Of a DNA stretch of 64,000 nucleotides, positions 51,109 to 61,151 are shown in pieces. The DNA is from Aminobacterium sp. MB27-C1. Its GTDB lineage: Bacteria > Synergistota > Synergistia > Synergistales > Aminobacteriaceae. The notes below the pieces were generated by a model. That model was not told the DNA's origin, searched no databases, and was given only the letters and a program-made list of their open reading frames with translations. Location of the stretch: contig NZ_CP133089.1 of the NCBI RefSeq assembly GCF_030908405.1, forward strand, positions 496,001 to 560,000. The letters are read 5' to 3'. A program made the position numbers and the translations under genes. Every line of letters starts with the position of its first letter. Position 1 is the first letter of the stretch.

Positions 51109-51135
51109 CTAGCACTCATTGGCATAGAGTGCTAA
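51109..51135 (+). promoter_or_regulatory. CIRCE operator (HrcA-binding site)
   Basis: CTAGCACTC-N9-GAGTGCTAA matches the CIRCE consensus TTAGCACTC-N9-GAGTGCTAA with one changed base in the left arm. It lies about 20 bases after the -10 box, in the transcribed leader of hrcA, where HrcA would block transcription. Confidence 0.95.
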
Positions 51136-55987: not shown

Positions 55988-56854
55988 ATGACCGGGGCAG
56001 ATAGTTTCTGGTGGTATATAACACTTGAAGGAGGATCTGAGCAAGAAGAAGCACTTTCTTCTTTAGCAGATCTTTCTGGAGGGATAGGGTCAGAGGAACA
56101 TGAAGGCTCTGGGAAAATTCGTCTTCGAATTTATTACCGAACGTCTCACGATCTCGGATATTGGCTCGAATTGCTTAATCATGTTTTAGAATCCTTCCCT
56201 GGAATAAGTGTAGTGGACATGGGAAAAATTGAAAATCGCCAATGGCATACAGAATGGAAAGAAGCCTTTCCTCCCCTTCCCGTAGGAGAGAAGTTTGTTG
56301 TATTGGCTCCTTGGCATCGTGGATCGGAACCTAACGATCGCATTCCCCTTTATATTTATCCTGGTTCGGCCTTTGGCACTGGATATCATGAAAGCACCCA
56401 GATTGCTTTGACACTTTTGGAACGTCACATGAAACCTCACTGGAATATAGCTGACATTGGAACAGGGTCAGGCATTCTTTTTATTGGTGCTATTCGACTT
56501 GGCGCTGGTAAAGTGTATGCAAGAGATCTTGATCCTGCAGTACTCAATGAAGTGTTGAATAATATGGAACTCAATGGCATTTATAAAGAAGAGGTGGATC
56601 TTAAAGAAGGAAATCTTCTTCAAGGTTTCGATCATACCGTAAATTTATTAATGGCAAATATTATAATAGAACCTCTTATGTCTATGATTCCTGATGTTCC
56701 CCATGCTTTATGCGATGGAGGAATTGCGATTTTCTCTGGCCTCCTGACGAAGGAAAAAGATACATTTATCGAGACGCTTAATAAGGCAGGTCTAAAAATT
56801 ATCGATGAGCTTGAAAGAAACGATTGGTGGGGAGTGGCAGTAACTAAGAAATGA
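55988..56854 (+). CDS. prmA: Ribosomal protein L11 methyltransferase
   Basis: Uses S-adenosylmethionine to trimethylate ribosomal protein L11. The 288-aa protein has an N-terminal L11-recognition domain (WWYITLEGGSEQEEALSSLA). The SAM-dependent Rossmann domain includes PGSAFGTGYHESTQIALTLL, motif I IADIGTGSGILFIGAIRLGA (about 152-171), and the NPPY-like loop NLLMANIIIEPL. AGAGGAGGA precedes the ATG. In Firmicutes prmA usually follows dnaJ in this way. The end overlaps mtaB by four bases. Confidence 0.95.
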   Translation: MTGADSFWWYITLEGGSEQEEALSSLADLSGGIGSEEHEGSGKIRLRIYYRTSHDLGYWLELLNHVLESFPGISVVDMGKIENRQWHTEWKEAFPPLPVGEKFVVLAPWHRGSEPNDRIPLYIYPGSAFGTGYHESTQIALTLLERHMKPHWNIADIGTGSGILFIGAIRLGAGKVYARDLDPAVLNEVLNNMELNGIYKEEVDLKEGNLLQGFDHTVNLLMANIIIEPLMSMIPDVPHALCDGGIAIFSGLLTKEKDTFIETLNKAGLKIIDELERNDWWGVAVTKK

Positions 56855-58155
56855 TAAGTCAGCTCAAAGGGAAGAAAATTTGTATTATTGCTATGGGGTG
56901 TCGATCCAATCAGTCTGAGGCAGACTCCCTTGCTTCTATGTTGCAGGCTGCTGGGGCAGATATTGTAAGCGAGCCACCTTTTGACGGTGCTGTTCTGGTG
57001 ACATGTACTGTAACAGCTGTGGCTGATAAAAAAAGTCGACAGCTGTTAAGACGCTTACGAAGGCAGGCACCACAAGCCGTTATCGTTGCTACAGGTTGTT
57101 GGGCTCAACAAGCTGAATCTCACCTCGCGCAAGTTTTAGGAGTTGACTTTCTTGTAGGAAACCGGCAAAAGTGGCAAATACCCTCTCTTTTCAGTATGGC
57201 CTTTTCGTCGAATCAGCCCATGGCTTTTACTGATATGAGAAGCGATGTCCTTCGTGATGCCCAATGGGATCATTTGTTTCAATATCACCCTCTTCTTCAT
57301 AGCCGAGCCTTTGTAAAAATACAGGACGGATGTAATCATTTCTGCACATATTGTATTATCCCCTTTGTTCGGGGGAATCCGGTAAGTCGTCCTCTTAATG
57401 ACCTCCTCAAAGAGGTCTGTTCAATAGTGGATTCAGGATGTTCTGAAATAGTGCTCACAGGAGTTCATCTTGGTCTTTATGGTAAGTATGGAGAGGTTTC
57501 ACTTGGAGAAGTTGTACGGCAAATAGGAGCAATTTCTGGAGTGAAACGAATCCGCTTTGGTTCCCTTGAACCATTTGGGATAGATGATGAACTGCTTAGT
57601 TCTTTGGCAGAAACACCTCAATTTTGTCCTCATCTTCACCTCCCTCTCCAGAGCGGAGATGACGGAGTGCTAGAAAAGATGGCTCGTGGATATAGTGTAA
57701 ATGACTATATGACTTCAGTAAAAAAGGTTCGTCGTTTTCTTGGCGATAATGTGCATATAAGTACGGATATTCTCGTAGGATTTCCAGGTGAAGACGAAAA
57801 GGCTTTTGCCAATACTCTTGCCCTAATGGAAAATGTAAAATTTGGTAAAGTACATGTTTTCCCTTATTCACGAAGAAAGGGAACAAAAGCTGCCTCTTTG
57901 GGAGGACAGATACAGCATGAAATAATTCAGGAGAGAGTGCATCGGGTTTTAGAAACTGGCGAAAAACTTCTGAATGAGTATTGTTCTCAGTGGATAGGTA
58001 AGACCTTCCCTATCCTAATAGAGGAGGCAGGAGAAAACGAATCTTCGGGATTAGCTCCCTTTTTTGTAAAAGCTGTTGTTCCCCGAAAGATGTCTGTCGG
58101 CCAAATAATTGAGGTTTCTCCACGTAAATATGCATCAGAGCAATTCTATGCATAA
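56851..58155 (+). CDS. mtaB: tRNA t6A37 methylthiotransferase MtaB
   Basis: Radical SAM enzyme that converts t6A37 to ms2t6A37 in tRNAs reading ANN codons. The 434-aa protein begins with the UPF0004 domain and its three cysteines (IAMGCRSNQSEADS, LVTCTVTAVADKKSRQ, VATGCWAQQAE). The radical SAM triad CNHFCTYC follows at about 161-168, then HLHLPLQSGDDGVLEKMARG and a short C-terminal TRAM-like region. The G-C-R-x-N start is typical of MtaB over MiaB. It overlaps prmA directly; the rsmE gene that lies between them in many Firmicutes is absent here. Confidence 0.95.
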   Translation: MISQLKGKKICIIAMGCRSNQSEADSLASMLQAAGADIVSEPPFDGAVLVTCTVTAVADKKSRQLLRRLRRQAPQAVIVATGCWAQQAESHLAQVLGVDFLVGNRQKWQIPSLFSMAFSSNQPMAFTDMRSDVLRDAQWDHLFQYHPLLHSRAFVKIQDGCNHFCTYCIIPFVRGNPVSRPLNDLLKEVCSIVDSGCSEIVLTGVHLGLYGKYGEVSLGEVVRQIGAISGVKRIRFGSLEPFGIDDELLSSLAETPQFCPHLHLPLQSGDDGVLEKMARGYSVNDYMTSVKKVRRFLGDNVHISTDILVGFPGEDEKAFANTLALMENVKFGKVHVFPYSRRKGTKAASLGGQIQHEIIQERVHRVLETGEKLLNEYCSQWIGKTFPILIEEAGENESSGLAPFFVKAVVPRKMSVGQIIEVSPRKYASEQFYA

Positions 58156-58164
58156 GGCCGATTC

Positions 58165-58193
58165 CTGAAAATGAATTCTTACACTGGTATAAT
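58165..58193 (+). promoter_or_regulatory. Extended -10 promoter of the second Hsp70 gene
   Basis: TGGTATAAT (58185-58193) is a perfect extended -10 box. CTGAAA (58165-58170) lies 17 bases upstream. Transcription would start near 58200, and no CIRCE-like repeat is visible between there and 58247. Confidence 0.75.
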
Positions 58194-58246: not shown

Positions 58247-59803
58247 ATGGACTCTATGCTTGGGATAGATCTTGGAACTCGATATGCCCTGGCGGCCTGC
58301 AAAATTAATGACAAAGTTGAAGTGCTTTCGAATCGGTGGGGATTGAAAAAAACTCCCTCCGTTGTTTCGTGGGCATCCGAGGGGTGGCTTGCTGGCGAGG
58401 AGGCTGCTCGTCGTGAAGTGGCGTTTCCAGAGTACACATATTGGGACATGAAGAGGCATATAGCTTGTACCGGACCTATTCGATGTGGTCGGCGTACCTT
58501 CTCTCCAGAAGAACTGTTAGTCCCCCTTCTTTCGTTGGTCAGAGAGGATGCGGAAGCAACACTAACTCGTTTTATAACGTCGTGTGTCCTCACTGTTCCT
58601 GCTTCTTTTAATTTTTCCCAGCGACAAGCTGTTGCGCGAGCTGCGGATAAAGCTGGTTTTGAAGAAATAAAAATAATTAACGAGCCTACAGCTGCAGCGT
58701 TTGCCTATGGAAAAGAAGGGCTCTCTCTAATTTTAGATTTTGGAGCGGGAACTGTCGATGTCTCTGTAGTTGAAGCTGAACAGGGTATATGGCAGGTTTT
58801 AGAGAGTGTCGGTGATTCGTGTATAGGGGGAAGAGAAATTGATTTTCTTCTCGCTCGCATGCTTCAGAAACGACTTTCATTGATCTCTAAAACGTTAGCA
58901 GATAGTGAAGCGCTCTGGCGGTACCTCCTTGGTGAGGCGGAGAATATAAAAGTAGCTCTCTCGACGTGTTCTTCCTTTACGTGGTTGCCTTCCTTTGGAA
59001 TTTGTCAGTCAAGCAAACCGATATTGATAAGAAGAGAGGAATTGGAGCGTCTTATGCGCCCCATGCTTCATAAAGTGGTTAATATAGTAAGTGAACTTTG
59101 GAAAAAGTACTCTCCTCAACGTCTTTTGCTTGTAGGCGGGAGCAGTCGCATACCTTTATTGCACTCAATGCTTGAAGAACGAGTTGCCCGACCTGATCAC
59201 TTGAATCAATGTCCTGATGAGGCTGTTGCTATTGGCGCAGCTCTTTTTGGAGCAAGTTCAGAAAAACGTTTTTTGATAGATGTTCTTTCTCAAGATCTTG
59301 GTATCCGCTCTGCAACTGGCGATTTTGTTTCTGTTCTTCAAAAAGGCTCACCTCTTCCTTGTAAGGCTTCGAAAAGATTTATAAGCATTGCTAACGGCAG
59401 TTTGGATTTGCATATAATGCAAGGAACATCTGAGGGGCAGTTTTCAACATTAAATCAGGTAACGATCGACTTTCTTTCAGAAAAAGAAGAAGTTGAACTC
59501 TTTTTCTCCGTAGATTCTAACGGACTTCTTGCTATAGAGCTTCAAAGAAAAAATGGAGAGAGAATAGCAATTCCTGATATTACGGTAGAAGAATGTACGT
59601 TAAAGGAAAACCCTGTACCGCCGGAAATAAAAGATTTGGAAAAACGTTTAGCCCGTGTTTCTATTGCTCTACCTTCAGAGCAACAAGGCAGGCTTTTGTC
59701 TCTTTTTAGTTCCGCCAGAACACTTTCCGATAAATCTATTTATGGGGATGCTGTAGCTATTCTTGAAGAGATGGTTCGTGAAATGGAGAGGGTTTCCCTA
59801 TGA
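58247..59803 (+). CDS. Divergent Hsp70-family protein
   Basis: A second Hsp70, 518 aa, distinct from DnaK at 52919. The ATPase core is complete: phosphate-1 GIDLGTRYALAACK, VLTVPASFNFSQRQAVARAA, INEPTAAAFAYG, phosphate-2 ILDFGAGTVDVSVVEAE and adenosine motif [17 protein letters not shown]. The linker is altered: DVLSQDLGIRSATGDF replaces DnaK's [11 protein letters not shown]. The peptide-binding region follows (SVLQKGSPLPCKASKRF). The helical lid is cut to about 60 residues and there is no acidic tail. It overlaps a J-protein gene by four bases. It is not an obvious HscA, since no isc genes are near. A second in-frame ATG at 58256 could be the start. Function unknown; the client is probably narrow. 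Confidence 0.92.
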   Translation: MDSMLGIDLGTRYALAACKINDKVEVLSNRWGLKKTPSVVSWASEGWLAGEEAARREVAFPEYTYWDMKRHIACTGPIRCGRRTFSPEELLVPLLSLVREDAEATLTRFITSCVLTVPASFNFSQRQAVARAADKAGFEEIKIINEPTAAAFAYGKEGLSLILDFGAGTVDVSVVEAEQGIWQVLESVGDSCIGGREIDFLLARMLQKRLSLISKTLADSEALWRYLLGEAENIKVALSTCSSFTWLPSFGICQSSKPILIRREELERLMRPMLHKVVNIVSELWKKYSPQRLLLVGGSSRIPLLHSMLEERVARPDHLNQCPDEAVAIGAALFGASSEKRFLIDVLSQDLGIRSATGDFVSVLQKGSPLPCKASKRFISIANGSLDLHIMQGTSEGQFSTLNQVTIDFLSEKEEVELFFSVDSNGLLAIELQRKNGERIAIPDITVEECTLKENPVPPEIKDLEKRLARVSIALPSEQQGRLLSLFSSARTLSDKSIYGDAVAILEEMVREMERVSL

Positions 59804-60780
59804 CAGATATATCACTTCAGATCGAAGAAAGTCTGGCAATCCTTGGCGTTGCTTCTGGCGCTTCAATGAAAGAAATTCGCTCTGCTTTTAGACGCTTGGC
59901 ACGCACATGCCATCCTGATATAGCAGGACCTCAGACGGCAGCAGAGTTTGAAAAGATTACGGCGGCATATCTTTTTTTGAAAAAGAAGGGAACCACTCTT
60001 ACTCGCAAAGAAACAAAGACAACTAAAGATCGTTATACTCGTACGAAGCCAAAAAGAGAGGGTTTTAGAAAAGCTCAATCGCAACGTACAGAAAAAAAAG
60101 CGAATCCTGAAAAAATAAGGCATCTTCTTACAGAAAAAATAATAGTTGAAGCAGAAATAAAAATGGCTAGACTTATGGAGAAAGTTGCAGAAAAACAGGG
60201 GGAATCAGATTTTTATAGGTCACAAAAGAGACTTTTAAGTTCCCATCCTGAAGTTCGATCTCTGGCGGCATCTCTCCTTTTCAATCATTTAGATGAAAAA
60301 GGTGTCGTTGATTCTTTTGCAGAAATGATTCAAGCGTATCCTGAAGACGAATACGTGTTACAGTACATTTTTGATGGAATATATTTTCAGAACAGATTTA
60401 TTCCAATTGCAGAAGCGGTAGCTGCAAAAGCTTCTCAGCTTACAGAGAAAGTAGCTCTTTCTTTTTTGCGCTGGATTGCACGCTTCGATAAACGTAAAAT
60501 ATATCTCGAACGTTTTCTTTCCCATCCATCGGAAGATGTTGTAGCGAAAGCTTTGACACGATGGCCTCATGGGAAAGGGCTTCCCGACGATTTAAGTTTA
60601 ATTCGTCTTCTAAAGAAAGATAAAGAAGAAATTCTCGTTCCCCTTTTGCAAATATTGAGAAGAGAAGAAAATGTACCCTCTTGGACCATGGCGAAAATAA
60701 AATTGCTTGCTCAATCTCATAGTGCAGCAAGTGTACGAGTTTGGGCGGGGTCTATTGTCCGGAATAAAAATCTGGTATAG
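59800..60780 (+). CDS. J-domain protein with helical-repeat C-terminus
   Basis: A 326-aa protein. Residues about 8-68 form a J domain (LAILGVASGASMKEIRSAFR, with HPD at 38-40 in ARTCHPDIAGPQ). A very basic linker follows (about 70-110; KETKTTKDRYTRTKPKREGF). The remainder (about 115-326) is all helical, with HEAT-like elements (SSHPEVRSLAASLLFNHL, LSHPSEDVVAKALTRW, SHSAASVRVWAGSIV). There is no Gly/Phe region or zinc domain, so it is a type III J-protein. The ATGA overlap with the upstream divergent Hsp70 shows they are a dedicated pair. The repeats probably bind one particular client. The family is not one I can name. Confidence 0.88.
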   Translation: MTDISLQIEESLAILGVASGASMKEIRSAFRRLARTCHPDIAGPQTAAEFEKITAAYLFLKKKGTTLTRKETKTTKDRYTRTKPKREGFRKAQSQRTEKKANPEKIRHLLTEKIIVEAEIKMARLMEKVAEKQGESDFYRSQKRLLSSHPEVRSLAASLLFNHLDEKGVVDSFAEMIQAYPEDEYVLQYIFDGIYFQNRFIPIAEAVAAKASQLTEKVALSFLRWIARFDKRKIYLERFLSHPSEDVVAKALTRWPHGKGLPDDLSLIRLLKKDKEEILVPLLQILRREENVPSWTMAKIKLLAQSHSAASVRVWAGSIVRNKNLV

Positions 60781-60809
60781 AATAACGTGAAGCTGAGAGG
60801 TGGGTTTTG

Positions 60810-61151
60810 GTGAGCGAAAGTTGTCTTTTTTGTAAAATTATTAAAAAAGAGCTAAATGCTGATATCGTTTATGAAGATTCTAAGGTCGTAGCATTTAGGG
60901 ATGTTAATCCTCAGGCTCCTGTTCATGTGCTTATTATTCCCAAAGAGCACGTTGGTTCATCAGCCGAAGTTAGCGAAAATAGTCTTTGGGCCGATCTTAT
61001 GGCATCAGTAACGTATGTTGCCAAAGAGCTTGGCTTGAATAAATCCGGTTACAGGTTAGTTATTAACTGTGGTGCTCAAGCTGGACAAACAATCCCCCAC
61101 CTTCATGTTCACCTGTTGGCGGGACGGTCGTTCCGCTGGCCACCAGGTTAG
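60810..61151 (+). CDS. hinT: HIT-family nucleotide hydrolase (HinT)
   Basis: A 113-aa histidine-triad protein that hydrolyses purine nucleoside phosphoramidates and related adducts. It begins with a CLFC pair in [22 protein letters not shown]-like sequence (residues 2-23) and has [19 protein letters not shown]. The catalytic triad is in [14 protein letters not shown] chose GTG 60810 because of the AGAGGTGGG upstream; TTG 60807 is possible. HinT followed by rpsU and yqeY is a common bacterial order. Confidence 0.95.

Follow-up and report, generated by a model that had tools for sequence, protein, structure and literature searches.

A divergent Hsp70 and its adjacent J-HEAT protein in Synergistota, with probably related pairs in Spirochaetota

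Aminobacterium sp. MB27-C1 encodes a complete DnaK/DnaJ/GrpE set, as do the other genomes that bear the gene pair described here, and the question raised by this locus is what a further, divergent Hsp70 and an adjoining J-protein could be for. We analysed the window, a stretch of 64,000 nucleotides (NZ_CP133089.1, positions 496,001 to 560,000), and compared the two genes, here called X70 and XJ, with those of other bacteria. The results indicate that the pairing of this chaperone and co-chaperone is genuine and ancient, that it occurs in two bacterial phyla and that it is apparently undescribed. Our preferred reading, to which we assign a probability of about 0.7, is that the two proteins constitute a dedicated two-component J-HEAT/Hsp70 machine with a client of its own.

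Domain structure of X70 and XJ

X70 (518 aa, 58247..59803) and XJ (326 aa, 59800..60780) overlap by the sequence ATGA and, like the other features located in this section, lie on the + strand. They are preceded by mtaB (56851..58155) and followed by hinT (60807..61151), an arrangement that the open reading frames and the neighbourhood comparison confirm exactly as the earlier note had given it. Upstream of X70 there is a weak promoter-like site, CTGAAA-17-TATAAT with a TG before the −10 element (58165..58193); the consensus scan of the region found seven such sites, against 4.1 expected.

Pfam HSP70 scores X70 at 236.6 bits, and the AlphaFold2 model, computed from an alignment of its relatives (mean pLDDT 84.6), retrieved DnaK in several states when used in Foldseek. 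According to this model, a nucleotide-binding domain (NBD; aa 1–338, 58247..59260) is followed by an interdomain linker (aa 339–349, 59261..59293), a substrate-binding beta domain (SBDβ; aa 350–442, 59294..59572) and a C-terminal three-helix bundle (aa 459–517, 59621..59797), and the long lid helices of DnaK are missing. By E. coli DnaK numbering, the residues D8, K70, E171, D201 and T199 are retained in 33 to 37 of 37 full-length relatives, the J-contact residue R167 is R or K in 32 of them, and D393 is also retained. With its actin-like NBD, SBDβ and conserved catalytic residues, X70 is thus a member of the Hsp70 superfamily, and the intact ATPase motifs, altered linker and short lid noticed earlier from the letters of this one sequence were all recovered. 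The linker reads RFLIDVLS, compared with IVLVDVTP in DnaK, and is the best-conserved stretch of the family (mean pairwise identity of 66%, versus 52% in the NBD, 30% in SBDβ and 29% in the tail), which indicates that it has been changed, rather than degraded, relative to DnaK. The dN/dS values for full X70 are between 0.03 and 0.14.

In XJ, the only domain matched by Pfam is DnaJ (44.5 bits). This J-domain (aa 11–61, 59830..59982), also recognised through PDB sequence matches, lacks an accompanying zinc finger or DnaJ C-terminal domain, so that XJ is a class C (type III) J-protein, as proposed before. Its HPD motif (59911..59919) is present in 42 of 43 aligned relatives, including those that occur alongside reduced forms of X70. 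The AlphaFold2 model (mean pLDDT 80.7) shows the J-domain, a flexible linker (aa 63–102, 59986..60105) that is disordered at residues 67–100 (pLDDT < 50), and an all-helical region (aa 103–322, 60106..60765) resembling a HEAT/ARM solenoid. The HEAT-like C-terminus claimed in the earlier note is suggested by the fold and not by the sequence: Foldseek retrieved generic ARM/HEAT solenoids (best E = 9e-3, none below E = 1e-3), but no Pfam HEAT family matched XJ above threshold. HEAT_2 does pass in most of the spirochaete homologues and in those of a deep Synergistota family, f11. The linker is strongly basic in this XJ (net charge +11), but the trait is not conserved, since the charge is positive in 32 of 43 relatives and ranges from −11 to +13. 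The dN/dS values for XJ are 0.10–0.18.

In the cycle that we propose, the solenoid would hold a specific client, the flexible linker would let the J-domain reach ATP-bound X70, and the HPD motif would trigger ATP hydrolysis; X70 would then use its interdomain linker and small substrate domain to clamp or remodel the client. Because X70 has no long lid, weak and fast binding is expected, and we propose that the J-HEAT arm supplies most of the specificity.

The pair across Synergistota

Full-length X70 stood apart in a profile search of 188 Synergistota genomes, with scores of 396 bits or more, whereas DnaK-like proteins did not exceed about 327 bits. X70, full-length or at a contig edge, was found in 72 genomes; in the comparable set, 68 genomes have XJ. 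Of the 72, 67 contain both genes, adjacent in 66 and split over two contig ends in the other one (G050). Among the five genomes with X70 and no XJ, at least two (G008 and G118) run off the contig end, and one that is 97% complete (G016), where X70 is located elsewhere, represents a genuine exception. The prediction that the two genes form a dedicated, divergent pair and co-occur across the phylum was therefore borne out. The idea that the surrounding chaperone-translation cluster gives a clue to function was not, since in many genera the pair is not accompanied by the dnaK operon, and it lies in other surroundings in family f11 and in Spirochaetota. The gene mtaB adjoins X70 even in genera whose dnaK operon lies elsewhere, and mtaB and hinT remain in place where the pair has been lost (L115).

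Trees of many families placed X70 as a long-branched clade outside DnaK. A recent duplication of dnaK, which would have undermined the earlier proposal, is excluded by this separate clade and by the 30–33% identity between the proteins; membership in DnaK was also rejected, X70 scoring 207 bits against cut-offs of 648 and 822. In a denser tree, 18 Hsp70s from pairs (X70, spirochaete and f11) were split from 18 DnaKs by a branch with 100/100 support, in an unrooted topology with long branches. The position of the f11 Hsp70 was less stable: the first quick tree grouped it with Synergistota DnaK (SH-aLRT 95), this placement changed in later trees, and a clade of X70 and the f11 Hsp70 was not rejected (p-AU 0.21). 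The genome of the window encodes, in addition, a third Hsp70 of 627 aa (G000:C1:43895-45376; L243:5890-7773) that is 55% identical to DnaK and forms its own clade with copies from families f7 and f10 that have a J-protein alongside.

The flanking genes provide a view of the deep families that is independent of long branches. In f11, an Hsp70 of 570 aa, 55–58% identical to DnaK, is overlapped or abutted by the gene of a 254–259 aa J-protein with clear HEAT_2 repeats, in the order bpsA-Hsp70-J/HEAT-hinT and separate from an hrcA-grpE-dnaK-dnaJ-prmA-mtaB operon. Families f9 and f2 have the order mtaB-bpsA-X70-J, with hinT directly next in f9, and in f10 the order is mtaB-bpsA-hinT, with the pair missing. 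Because bpsA and hinT are common flanks, we argue, on the basis of synteny, that the pair is orthologous across the deep Synergistota families. The gene bpsA, which encodes a branched-chain polyamine synthase, accompanies the pair as a conserved neighbour (L093, L094, L095, L231-L233, L247). In f2, X70 is accompanied by a short J-protein of about 140–149 aa in which most of the HEAT domain is missing (L095:10293-10712, L097:2667-3086).

Reduced forms of X70 were observed in several genera. In three of them (g8, g10 and g12), the gene that follows mtaB encodes 381–423 aa, corresponding to the NBD and the C-terminal helical bundle, which tail alignments show to be retained; SBDβ is gone, and XJ is at another locus. 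In genus g16 (L201-L230), 39 of 43 genomes carry after mtaB an even shorter X70 of about 320–340 aa, in which K70, T199, R167 and mostly E171 are replaced while D8, D194 and the glycine motifs are kept; judging from these residues, it may be a pseudo-Hsp70. The reduced forms remain under purifying selection, with dN/dS of 0.11 for a g16 pair and of 0.17 and 0.31 for pairs of genes lacking SBDβ. This series suggests that X70 can lose its peptide-binding domain and still retain the tail bundle and a J-partner; the proteins without that domain may have acquired a new role or be in slow decay. Genus g20 (L112, L113) presents the opposite case, XJ beside hinT with no X70 detected. There, XJ lies downstream of a gene resembling a TtcA/TilS-type tRNA thiolation enzyme.

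These variants bear on an alternative in which XJ would combine a J-protein with a nucleotide-exchange factor, its HEAT/ARM domain acting on X70, in the manner of Sil1 or HspBP1, instead of on a client. The ARM/HEAT fold agrees with this, Sil1 of the Sil1-BiP complex (3qml_C) is among the weak fold matches of XJ, and XJ is kept alongside X70 proteins that have no peptide-binding domain. However, the solenoid matches are unspecific, as their E values indicate, and XJ persists in g20 in the absence of a detected X70, so that we consider this role unlikely.

Somewhat less probable again is a general role of the pair in folding or stress, as a second machine that diverged from DnaK/DnaJ and serves as its backup. 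The architecture of an Hsp70 with a J-domain protein would fit, and so would the similarity to DnaK that the f11 Hsp70 still has, but SBDβ shows little conservation and has been deleted from X70 in several genera, the same genomes contain the full DnaK/DnaJ/GrpE set, and relatives have lost the pair cleanly. A scan of the window for the CIRCE operator likewise found none at X70; the only site (51109–51135, one mismatch) directly precedes hrcA, and heat-shock control of the pair through CIRCE was rejected.

Spirochaete pairs and a possible link to motility

A scan of genome contigs revealed at least three spirochaete loci with a HEAT-repeat J-protein encoded downstream of a short Hsp70; none of the matches listed came from outside Synergistota and Spirochaetota, which is weak evidence for such a restriction. 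With a J-HEAT profile (A8), full-length matches were obtained in 24 of 247 Spirochaetota genomes, and in 18 of these 24 the gene lies directly downstream of a non-DnaK Hsp70, as it does in the 66 adjacent Synergistota pairs. The same profile gave only J-domain matches, none of them full-length, in 246 Planctomycetota genomes and in 379 genomes from the phylum of an Oscillospiraceae MAG, the sampling beyond the two phyla being thin. Comparison of the XJ and A8 profiles yielded E = 1.4e-20 over the full length, J-domain included; compared by themselves, the HEAT parts are weakly similar, with f11 giving the best score, 18.9 bits. The pair is thus not confined to the dnaK cluster or to Synergistota, and pairs that are probably related exist in Spirochaetota. 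The six remaining spirochaete J-HEAT genes (L327, L335-L339) have no Hsp70 within 1.5 kb, and several of these genomes encode a second short Hsp70 at another site.

Of 17 spirochaete pair loci, 13 adjoin flhF, flhG, fliA, fapA, cheW, cheR or cheA, the typical order being flhF-flhG-x-fliA-fapA-x-DUF6115-Hsp70-J/HEAT-(cheW-cheR)-cheA. Such a setting, with genes for the flagellum and for chemotaxis on either hand, suggests that the client is related to motility. Spirochaetes are flagellated as a rule, and J-HEAT is detectable in only about one tenth of the Spirochaetota sampled, which argues that it is not generally required for flagella.

The Synergistota loci examined have no motility gene beside the pair. 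Within the genus of the window, a genome that is putatively Aminobacterium colombiense (G001) lacks exactly the pair, with 185 bp between mtaB and hinT, and one third of this genome, taken as a sample, contained no clear flagellar gene; this loss is a single event. A. colombiense is reported to be non-motile and to have no flagellar assembly genes, and A. mobile is motile (PMC3035294). The pair is present in the putative Thermanaerovibrio acidaminovorans (G048), a motile species (PMC3035242), and in the putative Aminomonas paucivorans (G130), which is non-motile yet has plenty of motility genes (PMC3035310). A sample of about 269 kb (11%) from the genome to which the window belongs contained no flagellar structural gene. 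The only flagella-related hint from that genome was a 90-aa protein similar to the C-terminus of FlhB (YlqH type; L413:8876-9148, G000:C1 near 429 kb), encoded two genes from rnhB.

Considering this association, the flagellar/chemotaxis apparatus appears to be the most likely client class, although we put it at somewhat below even odds. A broader proposal, that the pair represents an ancient fourth type of bacterial Hsp70 machine, serving flagellar/chemotaxis assembly through a HEAT-repeat J-protein, with an Hsp70 able to shed its peptide-binding domain and persist as an ATP switch worked by the J-partner, is more doubtful.

Relation to known Hsp70 systems

Bacterial Hsp70s have been divided in a review into three types, namely DnaK, HscA and HscC (PMC8215388). 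Literature searches of incomplete coverage for a J-domain combined with HEAT in bacteria found nothing relevant. If the present reading is true, a pair that fits none of the three types, present in two phyla and in motility operons, would be an added type of Hsp70, and its motility-operon setting would suggest a concrete class of client. The full Hsp70, the form with NBD and helical bundle, and the catalytically altered remnant would also make a natural series in which to ask how an Hsp70 functions once its peptide-binding domain is gone.

The neighbours prmA, mtaB, hinT, rpsU and yqeY are suggestive of a pair associated with translation or the ribosome, like Ssz1/zuotin. This neighbourhood is conserved in Synergistales, the XJ of the window has its basic linker, and Ssz1 of RAC appears at rank 49 among the Foldseek matches of X70. 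Nevertheless, the f11 and Spirochaetota pairs are in quite other contexts, the basic character of the linker varies among relatives, and mtaB and hinT remain together when the pair is lost, which makes a ribosomal role improbable. The likeness to RAC lies in the pairing of a reduced-lid Hsp70 with a J-protein whose C-terminal region is helical; XJ differs in its HEAT-like solenoid in place of the zuotin domains, and X70 in having kept the catalytic residues.

That X70/XJ is the HscC/DjlC system, with its short divergent Hsp70 of similar size and neighbouring class C J-protein, is very improbable. In one quick tree the branch to DnaK left HscC on the same side as the pair, but HscC sequences cluster in a supported group of their own. 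With the model of the XJ C-terminal domain, DjlC reaches a score of 0.2 bits. Moreover, DjlB and DjlC carry HPE (PMC13254874) and are tail-anchored membrane proteins (PMC8215388), whereas XJ has HPD and a HEAT domain and lacks such a tail. The orthology that would have contradicted the earlier note was accordingly not observed.

A PADLOC search returned no defence-system match for X70 or XJ, and membership in such a system was rejected. The conflict systems with GAP1-N2 GTPases (PMC7159879) also contain prokaryotic Hsp70s without SBD and DnaJ-domain proteins, but their J-domain occurs as a fusion with FNIII repeats, within GTPase loci, and X70/XJ has another neighbourhood. Compared with DnaK/DnaJ, X70 has the same fold and catalytic residues, but it falls below the 648-bit equivalog cut-off and has no long lid, and XJ has neither the zinc finger nor the DnaJ C-terminal domains. 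Finally, membership in HscA/HscB was rejected because X70 reaches 202 bits, far short of the 708-bit cut-off for HscA, and there are no isc genes nearby. XJ also differs from HscB in its HEAT-like domain, but the two systems are alike in combining a dedicated Hsp70 with an adjacent gene for a dedicated J-protein and in the narrow client expected of such a pair.
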